A stretch of 64,000 bases of DNA, taken from NCBI RefSeq assembly GCF_026341775.1, contig NZ_JAPEOB010000001.1, forward strand, positions 3,658,001 to 3,722,000. Direction: 5' to 3'. The DNA comes from Streptomyces sp. NBC_00654 (lineage in GTDB: Bacteria > Actinomycetota > Actinomycetes > Streptomycetales > Streptomycetaceae). A program made the translations under genes and the position numbers. The notes below the pieces were generated by a model. That model was not told the origin of the DNA, made no database searches, and saw only the letters and a program-made list of their open reading frames with translations. Shown here piece by piece: positions 29,741 through 40,662 of the stretch. How positions within the stretch are numbered: position 1 is the stretch's first letter; every line of letters starts with the position of its first letter.

Positions 29741-30371
29741 GATGGTTCCTTCCTTCGTCCGGGAACGAGTCCGGCAGGGATAAGCCAGGGCTCGACCACG
29801 GGTGGGAACTCGATGTCGAACAGGCGACGGACCGGGTTAAGGGCCCCGTGCAGATCAAGGGAGTCGAGGCGGCAGTCGACCGGCCGGTCTCCGGGCGCCG
29901 CGTCCGCGACCCCGCCGCGCACGTGATCGACGGGCAGGCCAAACCTGCGCGCGATCAGGAGAGCCATCCGGTACTTGGTCAGCCCGTGCTCCGCACTCCA
30001 GTGGGCAACCGATCCCAGGCCCTTCCCTTCCAACAGGGAACGGGCGAGCTGGCTGCACACCTCGGCGGCCTCGTCCACGTGCGTGGGGTAGCGAACACAC
30101 ACGTCGTCCAGCTCAACCGGTGTGCCGGTCCCTACCTGGCGGGCAATCACGGTCAGATTTGTCTCGGCTGCGAATTGGACCGGTCCGTAGAGCACGGGCA
30201 GCCGCAGGATCGCCGCGTCCGGGCAGGCGGCACGCACGGCTTGCTCGGCGAGGAGCTTCCAGCGGCCGTAGGCGTTCAGCGGATTCGGGAGGCTGTCAGG
30301 CCGGTAGGGCGGCGCAGTTCCGTCAAAGACATAGTCGCTGGAGATGTGCACCAGCCGGGCTCCGCATTGAG
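29737..30371 (-). pseudogene. RmlD-like sugar-nucleotide reductase, N-terminus removed by IS
   Basis: About 210 C-terminal residues of an extended SDR of the dTDP-4-dehydrorhamnose reductase type: LVHISSDYVFDG, then NAYGRWKLLAEQAV (catalytic YxxxK), ILRLPVLYGP, and the substrate domain to the stop overlapping the SIS gene start (ATGA, 29737-29740). The Rossmann NAD-binding half is missing, cut at 30371 by the IS. The operon therefore lost its first gene, and perhaps its promoter, to the insertion. Confidence 0.8.
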
Positions 30372-30470
30372 CACTGTGCATCGTGAAGTTGCAGGTCACG
30401 GGTCTGGTGTGCGCGGGGTTCGGGATGCTCGTGCTGGTCGTGGGCGGATGGCTTCGGCGAAGATCGTCGG

Positions 30471-31310
30471 TCACCGGGAGACTTCGCGGTTCGTCAGGAC
30501 CAGCAGAGCCCTCACCAGCGCGGTCGCCCACTTCGGATCCGTGCGGACCTTGCCGAGGACGCGCCAGTTCTTCAGGTGGGCGAAGCCGTGCTCGACCGGC
30601 GCCCGTACTGCGGCAAGGGCCTTGTTCGACAGCTTCTGCCCTCGCGTGAGCGGCCGGTTCCGGGCGGCCTTGTAGCCGGTGATCACCGCTGGGTCGGCAT
30701 CGGGACCGCTGTCATCGAGCCCGACGAATCCCAGGTCGGCGATCGCTCCGAGCCGGGCCGCCCGCAACTTCTGCGTGAGCTTGGCGTGACGGCAGGCGGT
30801 GATCTCCGAGGTCCGCCCCGGCCGGGCCGCCGAGACCCAGAGCAGTCGGCCCTTGTCGTCGGTGAGCGCGATCACGAGCAGACCATGGTGCTTGTGCTTG
30901 CCCGAGTAGTTCTTCCGGTTTTCCGTCCCGGTGCGCCGCCGGGTGCGGATCAGCGAGCCATCCAGCAGGACCACCCCGCCACCCGTTCGGGCGATTCTCT
31001 TCAGGGCGCGGTCCAGGCGCGGGGCGCGGGCGGCCAGCAGGCCGACGACTTCCCTGACCCACCGTGTCACGGTGGTGCGGTGTATCCCGTTGCCGCCGGC
31101 CAGGTCGCCCGGCCGCTGGTCACAGCGCAGCACCGCCAGCACGATCCCCGCGATCCTTCCCGCGGGCAGCGCCCGCCACCGCGAGCCGATCTTCTTGCAG
31201 TGGCCGCGTATCAGGGTGGCGAGATAGTTCAAAGTGGCGCTCGACAGCGGCAGGCGGGCAGTGTAGACAAGGTCGTCAGGGCCCTCGACGGACCCGTTGT
31301 TTTTCTTCAC
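30471..31310 (-). CDS. IS5-family DDE transposase (copy 1)
   Basis: 279 residues from GTG 31310. An N-terminal HTH region (RTTVTRWVREVVGLLAARAP) is followed by the DDE_Tnp domain: VVLLDGSLIRTRRR (first Asp), AIADLGFVGLDD (second Asp) and VEHGFAHLKNWRV (Glu). The protein is identical to the copy at 39158-39997, so both moved recently or were duplicated together. All catalytic residues are present. Confidence 0.92.
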   Translation of the reverse strand: MKKNNGSVEGPDDLVYTARLPLSSATLNYLATLIRGHCKKIGSRWRALPAGRIAGIVLAVLRCDQRPGDLAGGNGIHRTTVTRWVREVVGLLAARAPRLDRALKRIARTGGGVVLLDGSLIRTRRRTGTENRKNYSGKHKHHGLLVIALTDDKGRLLWVSAARPGRTSEITACRHAKLTQKLRAARLGAIADLGFVGLDDSGPDADPAVITGYKAARNRPLTRGQKLSNKALAAVRAPVEHGFAHLKNWRVLGKVRTDPKWATALVRALLVLTNREVSR

Positions 31311-31373
31311 ACCGAACTCAACTGCCGCCGGGGTTTCGCTGGTTACGGCCTGCCGGGTTTTCTTCCGGCACGG

Positions 31374-31820
31374 TCACCGACGTGCGGTGAACCGCCCGTC
31401 GGGACGTTTGTGCAGCCAGCCGCGATCAGCGAGCTTGGTCATCTTCGCCCGCAGCGGCTCCAGCTTCCCACGCACCGCAACGTCAAGGCCCAGCTCCTCA
31501 CCCACCGCCCTGACCTGGACCGGGCCGTCGGCGGCCTGCACGATCGCCAGGATCATGCGGTAGTCGTCCAGCAGGGCGGTCTCATCGGGATTCTCGCCGC
31601 GGTGCGGGATCAGCAGGACAGCCCGCCCCGCCACCCGGCCGGGAACCGGGGCGGCGGCACCGGCCGCGGCCCGGTCCTGCTCGGCCAGCCGGTTCAGGAC
31701 CCGCTCGGCAATCACCAGCTCCTCCCGCTCGGCCTGGACCTCGGCAAGCTGCTTGGCCAGTTTCTCGGTGAGCACGTCCAGTTCACCCCGTCGAGCCGTG
31801 ATCCGCTCCAGCTCCTGCAT
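31374..31820 (-). CDS. IS accessory protein with coiled coil
   Basis: 148 residues from ATG 31820, with GGGAGG upstream. The N-terminal half is a coiled coil (LTEKLAKQLAEVQAEREELV) and the C-terminal half is a winged-helix-like region (VQVRAVGEELGLDVAVRGKL). It precedes the transposase in the same orientation, and its C-terminal half recurs in copy 2. Its role in transposition is unknown; regulation or target choice is plausible. Confidence 0.75.
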   Translation of the reverse strand: MQELERITARRGELDVLTEKLAKQLAEVQAEREELVIAERVLNRLAEQDRAAAGAAAPVPGRVAGRAVLLIPHRGENPDETALLDDYRMILAIVQAADGPVQVRAVGEELGLDVAVRGKLEPLRAKMTKLADRGWLHKRPDGRFTARR

Positions 31821-32122: not shown

Positions 32123-32563
32123 ATGACAGCCAAGATGCGGGCGTGGGTGGGTGGTGTGGTGGCGGGTGCGGCGCTGGTGGGGTTGGCGGTGTATCTCGCG
32201 GCGGTGGGGTTGGACGCGGCGGACAAGTCGGCGAGCGTGGCGGGCCTGTTCGTGGCGATCGCGGGGTTGGTGGTGGCGGTGACCGGGCCACGACGCGAAC
32301 ACTCCCCGCAGGGCGGACAGTCGCTCGCGAACAGTGAGGTGAACGGCGGTGCCGCGCAGGTATCCAACATCGGCGGCAACGTGCGCATCACCCGCCGCGG
32401 CCGCCCCGCGGCGTCCCTGCCTCCGGTGGCGCCGGTACCGCCTCCGTCAGGCGGCGCACCAACGGGGGGCGACGGGCAACGGGTACGCGACAGCACGATC
32501 GTGGGTCCGGTCGACCAGGTGCGGGACACCACCGGGGACGTCGACATCGAGGAGGGTCCGTGA
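32123..32563 (+). CDS. Two-helix membrane protein with amyloid-like motifs (NLR partner A)
   Basis: 146 residues from ATG 32123; ATG 32102 is also in frame. Two hydrophobic helices (VGGVVAGAALVGLAVYLAAV and ASVAGLFVAIAGLVVAVTG) lie in the first 55 residues. A soluble tail then carries two similar motifs: AAQVSNIGGNVRI and, at the very C-terminus, STIVGPVDQVRDTTGDVDI. Its last codons overlap the start of the giant STAND/TPR gene (GTGA, 32560-32563). The same motif occurs at the N-terminus of that protein. I infer a membrane effector or anchor recruited through homotypic motif contacts, like bacterial NLR-associated amyloid motifs. A paralogue lies at 37764-38243. Confidence 0.7.
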   Translation: MTAKMRAWVGGVVAGAALVGLAVYLAAVGLDAADKSASVAGLFVAIAGLVVAVTGPRREHSPQGGQSLANSEVNGGAAQVSNIGGNVRITRRGRPAASLPPVAPVPPPSGGAPTGGDGQRVRDSTIVGPVDQVRDTTGDVDIEEGP

Positions 32564-35500
32564 CCGGCGCCGGCCGCAAGTCCCGTTGGTGGCCCCGCCC
32601 GGGCACCCCGACTGGTTCCGGGGAGGGTTCGGCACGGGAAGACGCCGCGGCGACGCCGACCCACGGGGCGCGGCCGGGCCAGCGGGTGGCGGATTCGGTG
32701 ATATACGGGCCGGTGATCCAGGTCTCCGACACCGTGGGTCCCGTGCACATCGCCACGGGCACGGAGCACCCGTTGTACCGCGTCGGCGCCTTCCCGCGCG
32801 AGCACTCGGCCCCGTCGGTGGGGGCGGCGCGCACGCAGCCGGCACGTCTGTTGCATTCGCGCTACGCGCTGGTCGGCTTCACCGGTCGGGCCGAGGAGCT
32901 GGGGCGGTTGGCGGCGTGGCGGGACGGTTCGGAAGCGGTGTCGGTGAAGCTGCTGCACGGGGCGGGCGGGCAGGGCAAGACGCGGTTGGCCGCCCGTTTC
33001 GCCGCCGACTCGCATGCCGACGGTTGGGAGGTGTTGCAGGCCCGACACGCCGGCGACCCCGCCCCGGCGAACTCCTCGGCGGGCGAGGGCGACGCTCCGG
33101 GTCGGGCCGGCGTGGGGAATCCGCGGGCGGGGGTGTTGTTGGTGGTGGACTACGCGGAGCGGTGGCCGGCCGCGGATCTGTTGGCCATGCTCGCGCACGC
33201 CCCCGCGCAGGGGATACGGGTGCGCGTGTTGTTGGTGTCCCGTCCGGCCGGGTTGTGGTGGCAGACCCTGACCAATCGCCTGGACCGCATGGACCTGGAC
33301 ACCGACGCCCTGTGCCTGCCCCCGCTGACGGACGACCCCGGCACCGACCCGGCAGCCCTTTTCGCCGCCGCCCGTGATCGTTTCGCGCTAGCGTTGGACG
33401 TTCCCGACCCGCACCGGATCCCGGTACCCGCGACATTGGGCGACCGGGAGCGATTCGGGCAGGTGCTGGCGGTGCACATGGCCGCTTTGGTCGCCGTCGA
33501 CGCCCACCGCACCGGCACCCCCACCGTGGACCTGGACGCCCCGGGCCGCATCTCCGGATACCTGCTGGGCCGCGAACGCGACCACTGGCAGAGCCTGCAC
33601 GACAACCGGCGCGTCACTGTCACCGCCGAAACCCTGGCCCACACCGCGTACACCGCCGCCCTCACAGGGACTCTGACCCACGACGACGCCAAGGCAGCCC
33701 TGGCCGCGATCGGCGCGTGCCCCGACCACAGCACCGACCACGCCCTGACCGACCACGCCGTCCCCTACCCCCCGGCCGACCCCCACGCCGGCACCGTCCT
33801 GGAACCGCTCCACCCCGACCGCCTGGCCGAGGACTTCCTCGCCCTCACCACCCCCGGCCACCACCTGACCCACTCCGACCCTGACCCCTGGACCGCCACC
33901 GCCCCCCAACGCCTCCTCCGTCCGCCACCCGACACTCGCACAGGTACCGGGAACAACGGCACCATCGAGGGGCGGGGCCCATGGGCCCGATCCGCCCTCA
34001 CGGTCCTGATCGCGGCCGCCGCCCGCTGGCCCCACGTCACCACCACACAACTCGTCCCCCTGCTCACCACCCGCCCGAACCTCGCGCTCCATGCCGGCGG
34101 CGCCGCCCTGGCCGCCCTCGCCGCCCTGGATGACGTGCCCGTGGAGGTCCTGGAGGCTGTCGACGCCCACCTGCCCGAAGGTCGCCACAGCGACCTCGAC
34201 GCCGGCATTGCCGCCGTCACCGCCCGCCTCACCCCCCACCGCCTCGCCGTCACCACGGACCCGGCCCACCAGGCCGATCTACACGCCGCCCTCGCCAAGC
34301 GCTACGGCAACGCCGGCCTCTACCAACAGGCCCTGGCCGCCGAGGACCAGGCATTGGGCATCCGACGCCGCCTCGCGCAAGAGAACCCCGCCGCGCACGA
34401 ACCCGATCTCGCTAAATCGTTGAACAACCTGTCGATCTGGCTGGGTGAGGTGGGGCGCCGGGCCGAGGGCCTGGCCATGAACGAGGAGGCCGTCGAGATC
34501 CAACGCCGTCTGGCGGGGGCGGATCCCGCCGCGCACGAGCCCACCCTCGCCAAGTCGTTGAACAATCTGTCGGTCCGGTACGGGGACGTGGGGCGACGGG
34601 CCGAGGCACTGGCCGCAATCGAGGAAGCAGTCACGGTCCATCGCCGCCTGACGGATCCCGCCGCGCACGAATCCGACCTCGCCGGCGCGTTGAACACCCT
34701 GTCGATCCGGTACGGCGAGGTGGGGCGGTGGGCCGAGGCACTGGCCGCGATCGAGGAGGCCGTCGAGATCCAACGCCGTCTGGCGGGGGCGGATCCCGCC
34801 GTGCATGAGCACGACCTCGCCAGGTCGTTGAACACTCTGTCGGTCCGGTTCGGGGACGTGGGGCGGCGAGCCGAGGGGCTGGCCGCGATCGAGGAAGCCG
34901 TCACCATCCGACGCCGCCTCGCACACGCCAACCCCGCCGCGCACGAACCCGACCTCGCCAACGCGTTGAACAACCTGTCGTTCCGGCTGGGCGCGGTGGG
35001 GCGGCGGGCCGAGGGGCTGGCCGCGATCGAGGAAGCCGTCACCATCCGACGCCGCCTCGCACACGCCAACCCCGCCGCGCACGAACCCGACCTCGCCAAC
35101 GCGTTGAACACCCAGGCGATCCGATACGGGGCGATGGGGCGACCGGCCGAGGGCCTGGCCGCGATCGAGGAGGCCGTCGCGGTCCATCGCCGCCTGGCGG
35201 GGGCGGATCCCGCCGTGTACGAGCCCGACCTCGCGAACGCGTTGAACACCCAGTCGATCCGATACTGGGCGGTGGGGCGGCGGGCCGAGGGGCTGGCCGC
35301 GATCGAGGAAGCCGTCACCATCCGACGCCGCCTCGCGCAGGCAAACCCCGCCGGGTACGAACCTGACCTCGCGAACGCGTTGAACATCCTGTCGATCTGG
35401 TTCGGGGACCTGGGGCGGCAGGACGAGGGGCTGGCCGCGATTGAGGAAGCCGTCGCGGTCCATCGCCGCCTGGCGGGGGCGGATCCCGCCGTGTACGAGC

Positions 35501-37506
35501 CCGACCTCGCGAACGCGTTGAACACCCAGTCGATCCGATACGGGGCGATGGGGCGGCAGGCCGAGGCACTGACCGCAATCGACGAAGCCGTCACCATCCG
35601 ACGCCGCCTCGCGCAGGCAAACCCCGCCGGGTACGAACCCGACCTCGCGAACGCGTTGAACACCCAGTCGATCTGGCTCGGGGCGATGGGGCGGCAGGCC
35701 GAGGCACTGACCGCAATCGAGGAAGCCGTCACCATCCGACGCCGCCTCGCGCAGGCAAACCCCGCCGGGTACGAACCCGACCTCGCGAACGCGTTGAACA
35801 CCCAGTCGATCTGGCTCGGGGCGATGGGGCGGCAGGCCGAGGCACTGACCGCAATCGGCGAAGCCGTCACCATCCGATGCCGCCTCGCACAGCTGGATTT
35901 CAGCCTCAAGGCCTGCAGCGTGTCCGAAGAGGAGGAGACGGACGAGGAGCTGCTCGCGATCGAGGAAGCCGTCGCGGTCCATCGCCGTCTGGCGGGGGCG
36001 GATCCCGCAGCGTACGAGCCCGACCTCGCCAACACGCTCAGCTCCCTGTCGAACCGATACTGGGAGGCAGGGCAGGGGCTTGAGGCTCTGCTCGCGATCG
36101 AGAAGGCTGTCGGGATCTATCGCCGTCTGGCGGGGGCGGATCCCGCAGTGTACGAGCCTGATCTCGCCAACGCGCTGAGTACCCAATCGAACCGGTACTG
36201 GGGATCGAGGGGCAGGAACAGAAACACGGATACGATGATCGAGGAAGTCGTCGAGATCTATCGCCGTCTGGCGGGGGCGGATCCTGCAGCGTACGAGCCT
36301 GATCTCGCCAACGCGTTGAACATCCTGTCGGTCCGGCTGGGCGAGGTGGGGCGGCGGGCCGAGGCACTGATCGTGATCGAGGAAGCCGTCGCGGTCCATC
36401 GCCGTCTGGTGGGGGCGGATACCGCAGCGTACGAGCCTGATCTCGCCAGGTCATTGAACAACCTGTCGGTCCGGCTGGGCGAGGTGGGGCGGCGGGCCGA
36501 GGCACTGGCCGCGATCGAGGAAGCCGTCACCATCCGACGCCGCCTGGTGGGGGGGAACTCCGCCGCATACGAACCCGACCTCGCCAACGCGTTGAACACC
36601 CTGTCGGTCCGGCTGGGCGAGGTGGGGCGGCGGGCCGAGGCACTGGCCGCGATCGAGGAAGCCGTCACCATCCGACGCCGCCTGGTGGGGGGGAACTCCG
36701 CCGCATACGAACCCGACCTCGCCAACGCGTTGAACACCCTGTCGGTCCGGCTGGGCGAGGTGGGGCGGCGGGCCGAGGCACTGGCCGTAACCGAGGAAGC
36801 CGTCGAGGCTCAGCGCCCTCTGGCGGGGGCGGATCCGGCCGCATACGAACCCGACCTCGCCAGGTCATTGAAGAACCTGTCGAGCCAGTACTGGGCAGTG
36901 GGGCGGCGGGTCAAGGGGCTGGCCGCGATCGAGGAAGCCGTCGAGGTACACCGCCGCCTGACGGATCGCGTCGCATACGGGCCCGACCTCAGCAAGGTGT
37001 TGAACCAGTTTTCAATCTGGCGGGGGTTGCTGGGAAGGCGGGCCGAGGAGCCAGCCGTCGAGGAAGCTGGCGAGGTCTACCGCCGGCGGGCGGATCCAGT
37101 CTGCTATGAACCCGATCTCGCCCACTCGTTGACCATCCTGGCGATCCGGTACGGGGCGGTGGGGCGACTGGTCGAGGCGCTGGTCGCGATCGAGGAGGTC
37201 GTCACCATCCGACGCCGCTTCGCCGAGGAGAACTCCTCCGTGTACGAGCCCGACCTCGCCAAGTCGCTGTGGACGATGGCGAGGCTGCGAGTCGGTGGGG
37301 AACCGGGCCTTCTTCCCGGGGCGTTGACGGCGGTGGCGGAGGCCGTGGAGATTTACCGCCGATTGGCCGCGGAGACACCGGCTGTGTTCGCCGGGCTTCT
37401 ACGGGACGTGCAGGAGACACAGGCGGACGTACTCGACGGGCTCGGCCGTACCGGCGAGGCGAAGGTGATTCGCCGCAGGCTCACCGACGAGGCCCCGGAG
37501 AGCTGA
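32560..37506 (+). CDS. STAND NTPase with more than 20 TPR-like repeats (NLR-like)
   Basis: 1648 residues from GTG 32560, translationally coupled to the membrane protein. Residues 42-66 carry the shared motif DSVIYGPVIQVSDTVGPVHI. The NTPase domain has Walker A GAGGQGKT (134-141), Walker B GVLLVVDYAERW (192-202) and sensor-like VRVLLVSRP. From about residue 575 to 1640 come tandem repeats of 45-46 residues with the consensus YEPDLANALNTLSVRLGEVG followed by RRAEALAAIEEAVTIRRRL, TPR-like helical hairpins; one unit near residues 1108-1130 is degenerate. This is the NLR plan: signalling motif, NTP switch, repeat sensor. Known bacterial NLR-like proteins bind phage proteins and trigger cell death. 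The target here is unknown. Confidence 0.85.
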   Translation: MTGAGRKSRWWPRPGTPTGSGEGSAREDAAATPTHGARPGQRVADSVIYGPVIQVSDTVGPVHIATGTEHPLYRVGAFPREHSAPSVGAARTQPARLLHSRYALVGFTGRAEELGRLAAWRDGSEAVSVKLLHGAGGQGKTRLAARFAADSHADGWEVLQARHAGDPAPANSSAGEGDAPGRAGVGNPRAGVLLVVDYAERWPAADLLAMLAHAPAQGIRVRVLLVSRPAGLWWQTLTNRLDRMDLDTDALCLPPLTDDPGTDPAALFAAARDRFALALDVPDPHRIPVPATLGDRERFGQVLAVHMAALVAVDAHRTGTPTVDLDAPGRISGYLLGRERDHWQSLHDNRRVTVTAETLAHTAYTAALTGTLTHDDAKAALAAIGACPDHSTDHALTDHAVPYPPADPHAGTVLEPLHPDRLAEDFLALTTPGHHLTHSDPDPWTATAPQRLLRPPPDTRTGTGNNGTIEGRGPWARSALTVLIAAAARWPHVTTTQLVPLLTTRPNLALHAGGAALAALAALDDVPVEVLEAVDAHLPEGRHSDLDAGIAAVTARLTPHRLAVTTDPAHQADLHAALAKRYGNAGLYQQALAAEDQALGIRRRLAQENPAAHEPDLAKSLNNLSIWLGEVGRRAEGLAMNEEAVEIQRRLAGADPAAHEPTLAKSLNNLSVRYGDVGRRAEALAAIEEAVTVHRRLTDPAAHESDLAGALNTLSIRYGEVGRWAEALAAIEEAVEIQRRLAGADPAVHEHDLARSLNTLSVRFGDVGRRAEGLAAIEEAVTIRRRLAHANPAAHEPDLANALNNLSFRLGAVGRRAEGLAAIEEAVTIRRRLAHANPAAHEPDLANALNTQAIRYGAMGRPAEGLAAIEEAVAVHRRLAGADPAVYEPDLANALNTQSIRYWAVGRRAEGLAAIEEAVTIRRRLAQANPAGYEPDLANALNILSIWFGDLGRQDEGLAAIEEAVAVHRRLAGADPAVYEPDLANALNTQSIRYGAMGRQAEALTAIDEAVTIRRRLAQANPAGYEPDLANALNTQSIWLGAMGRQAEALTAIEEAVTIRRRLAQANPAGYEPDLANALNTQSIWLGAMGRQAEALTAIGEAVTIRCRLAQLDFSLKACSVSEEEETDEELLAIEEAVAVHRRLAGADPAAYEPDLANTLSSLSNRYWEAGQGLEALLAIEKAVGIYRRLAGADPAVYEPDLANALSTQSNRYWGSRGRNRNTDTMIEEVVEIYRRLAGADPAAYEPDLANALNILSVRLGEVGRRAEALIVIEEAVAVHRRLVGADTAAYEPDLARSLNNLSVRLGEVGRRAEALAAIEEAVTIRRRLVGGNSAAYEPDLANALNTLSVRLGEVGRRAEALAAIEEAVTIRRRLVGGNSAAYEPDLANALNTLSVRLGEVGRRAEALAVTEEAVEAQRPLAGADPAAYEPDLARSLKNLSSQYWAVGRRVKGLAAIEEAVEVHRRLTDRVAYGPDLSKVLNQFSIWRGLLGRRAEEPAVEEAGEVYRRRADPVCYEPDLAHSLTILAIRYGAVGRLVEALVAIEEVVTIRRRFAEENSSVYEPDLAKSLWTMARLRVGGEPGLLPGALTAVAEAVEIYRRLAAETPAVFAGLLRDVQETQADVLDGLGRTGEAKVIRRRLTDEAPES

Positions 37507-37619
37507 CGCGGCATGGGTCGGTGTCGGGCGCGGCCATCCGCAGTACGAATCGCTGGAAGAACCCGGAGGACGACCTGCCGCCCGACTTCGAGGACAACCG
37601 GGACGTGACATGTCGCCGT

Positions 37620-37767
37620 TGCCCTCGTGCTGAAGGGTGACGGCGCCACCACCGCTGTCGACCTGGTAGAGGCTGCCCCACACGGTCGATCGGCTCACGG
37701 ACTGTGAGGTGGCCCTGCGGCGGCGTCCCCACTTTCCCCAGGCGTCAGGCAAGTTCGGCAGCCTCAC
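37620..37767 (-). pseudogene. Remnant N-terminus of a second STAND/NLR gene
   Basis: On the minus strand a GTG at 37767 overlaps the TGA of the membrane gene B (GTGA), exactly as in the intact plus-strand pair. The frame reads WGKWGRRRRATSQSVS and then the motif STVWGSLYQVDSGGGAVTL followed by QHEGNGDM. Beyond about 37620 it becomes the antisense of the intact gene's 3' flank and ends without an NTPase domain. I read it as the start of a deleted homologue of the 1648-residue protein. Confidence 0.6.
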
Positions 37768-38243
37768 TCCACCTCAATGTCCGTGCCACCGTCGACCTGG
37801 TGGACCGGTCCGGAGATCGAACCGAAGACCGTCTGATCACCGCGGGGCACGGCTCGCGGAGGTTGCGGTGCCCCTGCCGGTGGCGTCGGGGGCGGAGTGG
37901 GCGTCGAAGAACTGCTTTTGATCTTGACTGAGCCAGTTGCCCCACGCACCTGGTACACGCCTCCGCCGACGTTCGCCGCCACGTGCTGTCCGCCTCCACT
38001 GGGGCGGTACTGGAGCACCAACCCCCAAATGGTCACGACGAGACTGGCGATGGCGACGAACAAACCCGCCACCCCGGCCAGCGAGGTCGCCTTTTCCAGC
38101 CCCACGCGGTTGAAGTACCAGATGAGACCGCCCGAAGTCACAGCCGTCACGATTCCGCCAGACCACGCCAGAGCTTTCCCCGTCATGACAGCATCATCGA
38201 GGATGCGCAGGCGTCGCACAGCGAAATTGCGCCACTGCGCCAT
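37764..38243 (-). CDS. Two-helix membrane protein with amyloid-like motifs (NLR partner B)
   Basis: 159 residues if started at ATG 38243; the homologous region begins at ATG 38186 and a GTG at 38336 is also open. Two helices (ALAWSGGIVTAVTSGGLIWYF and LAGVAGLFVAIASLVVTIWG) precede a tail with VGGGVYQVRGATGSVKI, a Pro/Thr linker, and the C-terminal motif TVFGSISGPVHQVDGG. The second helix (SLAGVAGLFVAIASLVV) closely matches SASVAGLFVAIAGLVV of partner A, so the two are paralogues pointing at each other across the STAND gene. It looks intact although its own NTPase partner is lost. Confidence 0.7.
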   Translation of the reverse strand: MAQWRNFAVRRLRILDDAVMTGKALAWSGGIVTAVTSGGLIWYFNRVGLEKATSLAGVAGLFVAIASLVVTIWGLVLQYRPSGGGQHVAANVGGGVYQVRGATGSVKIKSSSSTPTPPPTPPAGAPQPPRAVPRGDQTVFGSISGPVHQVDGGTDIEVE

Positions 38244-38414
38244 GATTCTGGTACGTGGGGATGATGGCACCGCGCCCTCGCCGCGCGGACTGACCCCGCG
38301 GCGGTCTCTGACCTGGGTGATTTCTCGCTCAGCCACTCAGGCGGCCTGACTGAAGCCACCTGCGGCCCGGTCCTCGTCGCGCAGCGGGGTGAAGTCGACA
38401 TTGAGGCTTCCCCT

Positions 38415-38828: not shown

Positions 38829-39094
38829 GCCGGGTGGCGGGGCGGGCTGTCCTGCTGATCCCGCACCGCGGCGAGAATCCCGATGAGACCGCCCTGCTGG
38901 ACGACTACCGCATGATCCTGGCGATCGTGCAGGCCGCCGACGGCCCGGTCCAGGTCAGGGCGGTGGGTGAGGAGCTGGGCCTTGACGTTGCGGTGCGTGG
39001 GAAGCTGGAGCCGCTGCGGGCGAAGATGACCAAGCTCGCTGATCGCGGCTGGCTGCACAAACGTCCCGACGGGCGGTTCACCGCACGTCGGTGA
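38829..39094 (+). pseudogene. IS accessory protein, C-terminal fragment
   Basis: Reads VAGRAVLLIPHRGENPDETA through VGEELGLDVAVRGKLEPLRA to the stop at 39094, matching the C-terminal 88 residues of the protein at 31374-31820. It is fused in frame to the first residues of an IS3 orfB starting at 38768, so a 108-residue chimera could be made. Confidence 0.8.
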
Positions 39095-39157
39095 CCGTGC
39101 CGGAAGAAAACCCGGCAGGCCGTAACCAGCGAAACCCCGGCGGCAGTTGAGTTCGGT

Positions 39158-39997
39158 GTGAAGAAAAACAACGGGTCCGTCGAGGGCCCTGACGACCTTG
39201 TCTACACTGCCCGCCTGCCGCTGTCGAGCGCCACTTTGAACTATCTCGCCACCCTGATACGCGGCCACTGCAAGAAGATCGGCTCGCGGTGGCGGGCGCT
39301 GCCCGCGGGAAGGATCGCGGGGATCGTGCTGGCGGTGCTGCGCTGTGACCAGCGGCCGGGCGACCTGGCCGGCGGCAACGGGATACACCGCACCACCGTG
39401 ACACGGTGGGTCAGGGAAGTCGTCGGCCTGCTGGCCGCCCGCGCCCCGCGCCTGGACCGCGCCCTGAAGAGAATCGCCCGAACGGGTGGCGGGGTGGTCC
39501 TGCTGGATGGCTCGCTGATCCGCACCCGGCGGCGCACCGGGACGGAAAACCGGAAGAACTACTCGGGCAAGCACAAGCACCATGGTCTGCTCGTGATCGC
39601 GCTCACCGACGACAAGGGCCGACTGCTCTGGGTCTCGGCGGCCCGGCCGGGGCGGACCTCGGAGATCACCGCCTGCCGTCACGCCAAGCTCACGCAGAAG
39701 TTGCGGGCGGCCCGGCTCGGAGCGATCGCCGACCTGGGATTCGTCGGGCTCGATGACAGCGGTCCCGATGCCGACCCAGCGGTGATCACCGGCTACAAGG
39801 CCGCCCGGAACCGGCCGCTCACGCGAGGGCAGAAGCTGTCGAACAAGGCCCTTGCCGCAGTACGGGCGCCGGTCGAGCACGGCTTCGCCCACCTGAAGAA
39901 CTGGCGCGTCCTCGGCAAGGTCCGCACGGATCCGAAGTGGGCGACCGCGCTGGTGAGGGCTCTGCTGGTCCTGACGAACCGCGAAGTCTCCCGGTGA
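39158..39997 (+). CDS. IS5-family DDE transposase (copy 2)
   Basis: 279 residues from GTG 39158, identical in sequence to copy 1, with DDE residues in VVLLDGSLIRT, AIADLGFVGLDD and VEHGFAHLKNW. It could in principle still act on elements with matching ends, including copy 1. Confidence 0.92.
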   Translation: MKKNNGSVEGPDDLVYTARLPLSSATLNYLATLIRGHCKKIGSRWRALPAGRIAGIVLAVLRCDQRPGDLAGGNGIHRTTVTRWVREVVGLLAARAPRLDRALKRIARTGGGVVLLDGSLIRTRRRTGTENRKNYSGKHKHHGLLVIALTDDKGRLLWVSAARPGRTSEITACRHAKLTQKLRAARLGAIADLGFVGLDDSGPDADPAVITGYKAARNRPLTRGQKLSNKALAAVRAPVEHGFAHLKNWRVLGKVRTDPKWATALVRALLVLTNREVSR

Positions 39998-40096
39998 CCG
40001 ACGATCTTCGCCGAAGCCATCCGCCCACGACCAGCACGAGCATCCCGAACCCCGCGCACACCAGACCCGTGACCTGCAACTTCACGATGCACAGTG

Positions 40097-40662
40097 TTCA
40101 TTGGCTCGGATGGCGGATGAGGGCCCCGTGCAGCCAAGGTCATCGGTGCGCAGGTTCACTCGCGAGGAACGGTTCCGGTATCCGGACTCGACGATGAGGA
40201 GGACGGCGGGGAAGGGTGAATACGCACAGGCCGTGCCTGCTGTCATGGGCACTCTGTCGCCTTGCAAGGTACGGCTCGCTCAGCGCTGCGACAATGCGAA
40301 GAACGGCTGCGCAGAGCCAGGATGAACCCCCAGGGCACGCATGTCCGACGAGCGCGTGGCCTCCGTTGGAGTGCCGATCCGTGTCTTCCTGCCGGGCGGA
40401 CGACGTCAGCTTGAGGCTTGTGCGACCGTCCCACACAGACACGACTTCCGCGATCAGCTTCGTCCGCATGGTGTCCGTCTCGGCTAGGGCCCCCACGTCA
40501 CGCGACACCTCGCAGGTCTGTGGCCGAAGTCCTCAGCTTCCAGTGACGGCTCGGTGAGTCGCGCTCCTGCTCACCAACACGTGAATGCACTACGGCGCCC
40601 CACGTGCGTCGCACGGGTCAGGGCAGGGTGCCGTCACACCAAAGCGGGCGTATTGTCACGGT
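40097..40662. other. Gene-free flank of IS copy 2
   Basis: No supported gene in 566 bases. G+C drops in places and short open frames lack start signals or codon bias. The last 50 bases form the leader of the gene at 40663. Confidence 0.5.

Follow-up and report, generated by a model that had tools for sequence, protein, structure and literature searches.

Two overlapping genes at positions 32,123 to 37,506 of a 64,000-nucleotide stretch of Streptomyces sp. NBC_00654 (here the window; contig NZ_JAPEOB010000001.1, in a 9.6-Mb genome of 15 contigs) encode a small protein with two predicted membrane helices and a large NTPase. The latter resembles the signal transduction ATPases with numerous domains (STAND) and ends in an array of tetratricopeptide repeats (TPRs). 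We consider the two genes a probable receptor-effector unit of the bacterial NOD-like receptor (NLR) amyloid-signalosome type, in which a membrane hairpin takes the place of the Bell domain, and we put the probability of this reading at roughly 0.6. Our data support that the TPR/STAND-like protein and the membrane protein form a recurrent overlapping pair, that the receptor has one N-terminal motif and the effector two copies behind the hairpin, with motif classes changing together in both partners, and that receptor and effector are paired via this shared short motif, which is subject to swapping. Pairs that recur across actinobacteria with their motifs changing in step suggest that the receptor switches on a membrane-acting partner via a self-assembling tag.

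The small protein and the NTPase recur as an overlapping gene pair

A profile built from the first relatives of the small protein gathered 80 small proteins, the closest being from Embleya, Streptomyces, and Kitasatospora. Among 57 small-protein frames from related loci, 41 had a downstream open reading frame (ORF) at −15 to +20 nucleotides (nt). The other 16 were dropped from the pair set, either as longer than 200 amino acids (aa), fused, or frameshifted (L038, L040, L045, L048, L056, and L084) or with a downstream ORF that was missing or distant (L031, L041, L060, L064, L069, L071, L082, L085, L086, and the minus-strand frame of the window), and removal of nine redundant cases left 32 nonredundant pairs. 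The overlap was exactly 4 nt in 26 of them; in the window, the TGA stop of the small gene (32561 to 32563) lies inside the GTG start of the receptor gene (32560 to 32562). The first-pass annotation of this locus, which proposed the coupling, had named a lack of recurrence beforehand as one result that would speak against it, and the pair does recur.

Matches to the small protein were found in 13 of 101 genomes of the family, 13 of 394 of the class, and 12 of 199 of the genus (own genome included each time), counts that are rough, with one query protein per search, few candidates scored, and some weak matches not confirmed as small proteins on reading. Two plasmid records also carried the pair.

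A shared motif matches and co-varies between the partners

The shared motif is about 25 residues long, and behind its hairpin the small protein carries two copies of it, R1 and R2, separated by a Pro-rich linker. The cognate motif of the window gave a local alignment score of 87 (z = 8.1 against composition-preserving shuffles), so the motif that the first-pass annotation saw in both proteins exceeds chance; R2 against the receptor motif alone scored 81. The window's cognate combination ranked best of 32 partners in both directions. Effector tails scored 57.8 with the N-terminus of their own receptor and 37.5 with those of other receptors (0 of 100,000 permutations); no such preference was seen in the helix part, used as a control (p = 0.57). 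Cognate tail scores exceeded those of shuffles at p < 0.05 in all 32 pairs and at p < 0.01 in 25. Because relatedness alone could yield matching tails and N-termini, we ran a partial Mantel test with helix and NTPase similarity held constant, in which tail similarity still correlated with N-terminus similarity (r = 0.62, p = 2e-4, n = 31, L039 omitted).

In an alignment of 48 of 81 sequences (the query and its 80 matches, with partial, near-identical, and the most divergent sequences omitted), the helices and both motif copies were conserved and the linker was variable. The motif is thus conserved among homologues, as the initial proposal had demanded, besides co-varying between partners. Two transmembrane (TM) segments were predicted in 42 of the 48 members, and the R1-R2 internal repeat went beyond shuffles (p < 0.05) in 45. 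One plasmid record, NZ_CP108601.1 (L089, 5893 to 12307), carries two adjoining two-TM-receptor pairs of different motif classes, each of which matches its own partner better than its neighbour's.

The small protein is a predicted membrane hairpin with a repeated tail

The ATG start at 32123 is supported by the relatives, which begin MTAK. Hydrophobic segments cover residues 12 to 30 and 37 to 55, and AlphaFold2 (AF2) predicted, at low confidence, helices at residues 3 to 28 and 30 to 54 and, in the C-terminal part, one four-strand pattern occurring twice, at residues 67 to 91 and 120 to 144. The positive residues K4/R6 before and R57/R58 after the hairpin suggest that both of its ends are cytoplasmic.

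An assignment of the small protein to an ordinary family was tried and rejected, Pfam matches over the 48 members being weak throughout (22 families). Phage_holin_3_6 matched 10 of the 48 (best E = 0.0018) and was not used as evidence, and none of the 22 families, at E ≤ 0.1, was SLATT, models of which are part of Pfam. A PDB sequence search with the small-protein profile returned nothing at E ≤ 1. NCBIfam gave no hit above cut-off for six proteins, Rfam gave no match over 30 to 40.5 kb, and a promoter and terminator scan of 31.8 to 32.7 kb found none.

Table 1. Features of the two-gene unit and its surroundings, in window positions
Feature	Position	Strand	Basis or remark
Small two-helix membrane protein, 146 aa	32123..32563	+	ORF; proposed effector; 80 homologues at E ≤ 0.01
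Predicted two-helix membrane hairpin, residues 3-54	32129..32284	+	AF2 helices and hydrophobic segments
Motif copy R1, residues 66-91, QSLANSEVNGGAAQVSNIGGNVRITR	32318..32395	+	Conserved columns Q66, Q79, G85, V87; internal repeat test; AF2 strands 67-91 (low confidence)
Motif copy R2, residues 119-144, QRVRDSTIVGPVDQVRDTTGDVDIEE	32477..32554	+	Conservation, cognate scoring, AF2 strands
STAND-like NTPase with TPR array, 1648 aa	32560..37506	+	ORF, Pfam, model; proposed receptor
Receptor-side motif, residues 41-65, QRVADSVIYGPVIQVSDTVGPVHIA	32680..32754	+	Cognate scoring; low-confidence, probably disordered N-terminus
Walker A GAGGQGKT, residues 134-141	32959..32982	+	Sequence, alignment
Walker-B-like LLVVDYAE (D197)	33136..33159	+	Sequence; D197 invariant in 50 aligned rows
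TPR array (bounds approximate)	34261..37470	+	Pfam, repeat analysis
Second small two-helix protein, paralogue	37764..38186	-	42% identical to the 146-aa protein
First ~52 codons of second, truncated STAND gene	37610..37767	-	4-nt overlap with its own small gene
Left copy of inverted 1275-nt insertion sequence (IS)-like element	30365..31639	-	DDE_Tnp_4 transposase 30471-31310
Right copy of 1275-nt IS-like element	38829..40103	+	Transposase 39158-39997

The partner is a STAND-like NTPase with a long TPR array

Both ORFs, their GTGA overlap, the quoted motifs, and GAGGQGKT are present as first annotated, and the accompanying figure of more than 20 TPR-like repeats is about right: the array has 20 PDLA-type anchors and 13 exact 46-aa units, and Pfam TPR_10 matched 15 stretches (E = 3.4e-76). 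The receptor thus combines two features by which STAND proteins are recognized, superstructure-forming repeats at the C-terminus and a P-loop with Walker B in an alpha/beta NTPase. A model of residues 1 to 600 (mean confidence, pLDDT, 85.5) has a low-confidence, motif-bearing N-terminus followed by the NTPase and helical parts. Its first Foldseek match was Avs5, and Avs5, Avs4, NLRC4, and plant NRC proteins scored high in a second fold comparison. The nSTAND_NTPase5 profile matched the receptor at 20.6 bits, below its cut-off of 34; among 120 listed receptor relatives, at least 30 (counted by eye) carry a precomputed match to it. The family alignment comprised the window fragment and 49 of these 120 listed STANDs (667 found).

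At 1648 aa, the receptor exceeds all 120 listed relatives, which have a median of 1034 and a maximum of 1439 aa (candidates were proteins of about 906 aa and longer), and its 46-aa units reach 86% DNA identity over 300-nt stretches; the array has therefore probably grown recently. The units differ from one another chiefly at about a dozen of their 46 positions. Positive selection was considered, and a crude pN/pS of 0.67 over 13 units gives no evidence of it. Repeats of fungal NLRs are thought to diversify by recombination, a parallel to the units in the window.

Motif classes, receptors, and effectors combine in several ways

Grouping by eye gave at least four motif classes among the two-helix proteins, whose partners were nSTAND-like/TPR, NACHT, and NACHT-HEAT proteins as well as a TPR receptor that matched NB-ARC below threshold. 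In the window's genus, 21 of 150 genomes (counting its own) held a receptor matching P0114. At 15 of 20 related-receptor loci besides that of the window, where the receptors mostly bore other motifs, the upstream gene encoded no hairpin (12 at −4); no TM segment was predicted in 11 of these 15 partners and one in 4. In 8 of the 15, the partner's end matched the receptor N-terminus at z of 5.8 to 12.9. These hairpin-less effectors may be Bell proteins; Pfam on five of them gave nothing above cut-off.

One hairpin-less partner, L102, has a QAGRD motif that is also found in four two-helix pairs, with which it groups in an NTPase tree (99% in the Shimodaira-Hasegawa-like approximate likelihood ratio test, SH-aLRT). 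The tree comprised 29 of the 32 pairs (without L039, L057, and L066) and 15 of the 20 loci L100 to L119 (without L104, L105, L112, L118, and L119; L105 is a two-TM pair already counted as L074). On it, effector type needs at least four changes, two of them forced by well-supported branches, with motif classes and the label "helical" (zero or one predicted TM) assigned by eye and four rows long-branched.

Several loci had other layouts. L038 (7977 to 10745) has the hairpin fused in one frame to a NACHT protein, and L084 has a two-helix domain in one frame with an FGGLGKT protein, no motif being seen between in either case. In L039 (8001 to 9364), the two-helix protein is more distant, and the 354-aa partner that it overlaps lacks both a Pfam match and a P-loop. 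Within the TPR-STAND family (P0083 to P0202), seven N-terminal motif types precede one conserved block in 86 of 112 N-termini, as judged by handmade patterns that the other 26 do not match, suggesting several further effector couplings.

A broken second unit and flanking IS-like copies

Downstream and in the opposite orientation, the window holds a second small gene and the remnant of a STAND gene (Table 1). Positions 37610 to 38292 are 97% identical in DNA to a Streptomyces himalayensis locus (L028), where the pair is intact and its second gene encodes 712 aa with a NACHT domain, which suggests that the pair was transferred recently and then lost most of its receptor gene. The IS-like copies, 100% identical, inverted, and 7.2 kb apart, bracket both the intact and the broken unit, and only two full copies were found in the genome. 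They hold the transposase and part of an upstream ORF in a composite-transposon-like arrangement; no target duplication was established at their flanks. The segment between them looks mobile, and this fits the patchy distribution of the pair. The second motif copy (residues 66 to 91), the second small paralogue by its broken receptor remnant, and the inverted copies had been missed in the first-pass annotation.

Discussion

The unit is best read as a variant of the signalosomes built on bacterial amyloid signaling sequences (BASS), from which it differs in its effector domain and regularly doubled motif. BASS motifs are carried by Bell proteins and, more rarely, by CHAT or TIR proteins encoded beside NLRs (PMC7889193, PMC8086366), so the statement of the first-pass annotation that it knew of no described system with this exact pair was too strong. 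As in BASS/Bell-NLR signalosomes, genes are adjacent or overlapping (by 4 nt in most of our pairs), the same motif stands at the effector C-terminus and the receptor N-terminus, the NLR-like receptor bears repeats, and the hosts are actinobacteria (PMC7889193, PMC8086366, PMC9815663). Their effector domain, however, is a HeLo-like helical bundle (PMC7889193, PMC8086366, PMC9815663), whereas just ~55 residues with two hydrophobic helices precede the first motif in the window, which sets the small protein apart from Bell by length and helix count rather than by profile comparison. Motif doubling is regular here; the BASS4 motif, too, is said to be often repeated (PMC7889193, PMC8086366, PMC9815663). 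A literature search of titles, abstract openings, and selected passages found no two-helix effector of this kind, the full text of Dyrka et al. 2020 (J Mol Biol) lying outside its coverage.

Several observations weigh against this reading. In just 8 of 32 rows and in 9 of 32 columns did the cognate partner rank first; interchangeable members within a motif class would give this pattern, and the rankings do not resolve pairing specificity inside a class. L039, with its non-NTPase partner, passes the shuffle test (p = 0.04), and p < 0.05 alone is therefore a soft bar. For the window's second small protein, the score was 31 against its own remnant and 29 against the first receptor, and for 7 of the 15 receptors paired with hairpin-less effectors, the cognate score failed to exceed shuffles (z < 1). 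Beyond the first three motif classes, the evidence that the hairpins are kin consists of low-scoring matches in hydrophobic sequence (about 42 to 69 bits), and the likeness of those in distant classes could be convergence. Confidence in the AF2 model of the small protein is low (pLDDT 62, predicted TM-score 0.28), and Foldseek with it gave no PDB match. ORC and other AAA proteins match the receptor fold equally well, so STAND cannot be told from other AAA proteins by the fold alone. No relative was found among phages or viral contigs, and PADLOC-DB 2.0.0, searched with five proteins at E ≤ 0.01, returned 0 families and no known defense model. The resemblance to BASS3 is also weak: compared with one BASS3 peptide, the 48 effector tails had a mean z of 1.09 (21% above 2; helix control −0.86) and 39 receptor N-termini a mean z of 0.62 (15% above 2; control 0.26, 3%). 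We did not adopt a RHIM/BASS3 identity, and the motif, compared with this single peptide, is not assigned to any of BASS1 to BASS10. From the initial interpretation, the pairing of receptor and effector via a shared short motif stands; the amyloid, membrane, and ligand steps are predictions from sequence and analogy, and we infer polymerization, membrane damage, and immunity from how the two proteins are built and from similar systems in fungi and bacteria (PMC7885112, PMC7889193, PMC8086366, PMC9815663).

The least unlikely alternative is that the motif binds without polymerizing, through a stoichiometric beta-solenoid or strand-addition contact, the ordinary NLR oligomer being the sole assembly. 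The pairing data do show matching rather than amyloid, and amyloid is suggested by analogy and low-confidence strands; self-similar motifs on both partners, doubled in the effector, and the Congo red staining of a BASS3 peptide (PMC8086366) argue for polymerization instead. We also think it unlikely, and more so, that the motif is a small beta docking tag by which the two-helix protein merely anchors the NTPase to the membrane for another output, such as control of gene expression or envelope sensing. The hairpin lacks a catalytic part, the L038 fusion sets it directly on an NTPase as an anchor would be, and the pairs may have a further output gene. Yet an anchor should need neither two motif copies nor replacement by hairpin-less proteins on related receptors.

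It is improbable that the pair works like a toxin-antitoxin module on a mobile element, with the large protein restraining a membrane toxin and the shared motif holding the inactive complex. The overlapping genes, the patchy distribution (13 of 101 family genomes), the two plasmid records, and the IS-like copies on both sides would suit such a module, but the window has retained its second small gene, apparently open, although this gene has no whole partner, a state that a free toxin should not permit, and the STAND/TPR architecture is typical of a ligand-gated switch. Matching termini through composition bias or gene fission are highly improbable: the tails are Pro/Gly-rich and some local alignments run into linkers, but the composition-preserving shuffles, the helix control, the partial Mantel test, and motif columns conserved around a variable linker all disfavor an artefact.

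The signalosome reading has counterparts in other systems. In the fungal HET-S/NWD2 and HELLP/PNT1 pairs, a one-motif receptor likewise adjoins a membrane-acting effector with a C-terminal motif, HET-s has two repeats, and PNT1 ends in TPRs (PMC7885112, PMC7889193); the likeness is one of architecture, sequence relation having been neither sought nor found. Domains of the HeLo type, which are bundles of four helices, expel a helix (PMC9815663), whereas the hairpin in the window looks membrane-resident from the outset. The receptor resembles the Avs (AVAST) anti-phage STANDs in its predicted fold and likewise has a repeat sensor, but the characterized Avs proteins have a fused N-terminal effector (PMC10907252), unlike the separate, motif-coupled gene here. 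SLATT proteins are likewise small two-TM proteins, proposed as pore-forming effectors of conflict systems (PMC7159879).

Under the signalosome reading, the TPR array would bind an invader-derived or stress ligand, and ATP-driven oligomerization of the NTPase would gather the N-terminal motifs into a beta-arch seed. The seed would recruit and template both motif copies on the hairpins' cytoplasmic tails, and clustering of the hairpins may permeabilize or disturb the membrane and so stop the infected hyphal compartment. More tentatively, and short of even odds, the two-helix protein may serve actinobacteria as a general cartridge for membrane killing, comparable to fungal HET-S but resident in the membrane and with a tail that forms a two-rung solenoid. 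Amyloid motifs that can be interchanged would then serve as insulated zip codes to nSTAND, NACHT, and NB-ARC-like receptors, and Bell-like soluble effectors would replace the cartridge on related receptors.

The outcome of bacterial amyloid signaling is said to await exploration (PMC7889193). If our reading is true, the 146-aa protein would be a minimal, experimentally tractable effector for bacterial amyloid immune signaling. Given the parallel change of motifs and the swaps of effectors and receptors, motif specificity and insulation can be tested directly, and about thirty pairs, along with two neighboring pairs of different classes on one plasmid, provide natural material.

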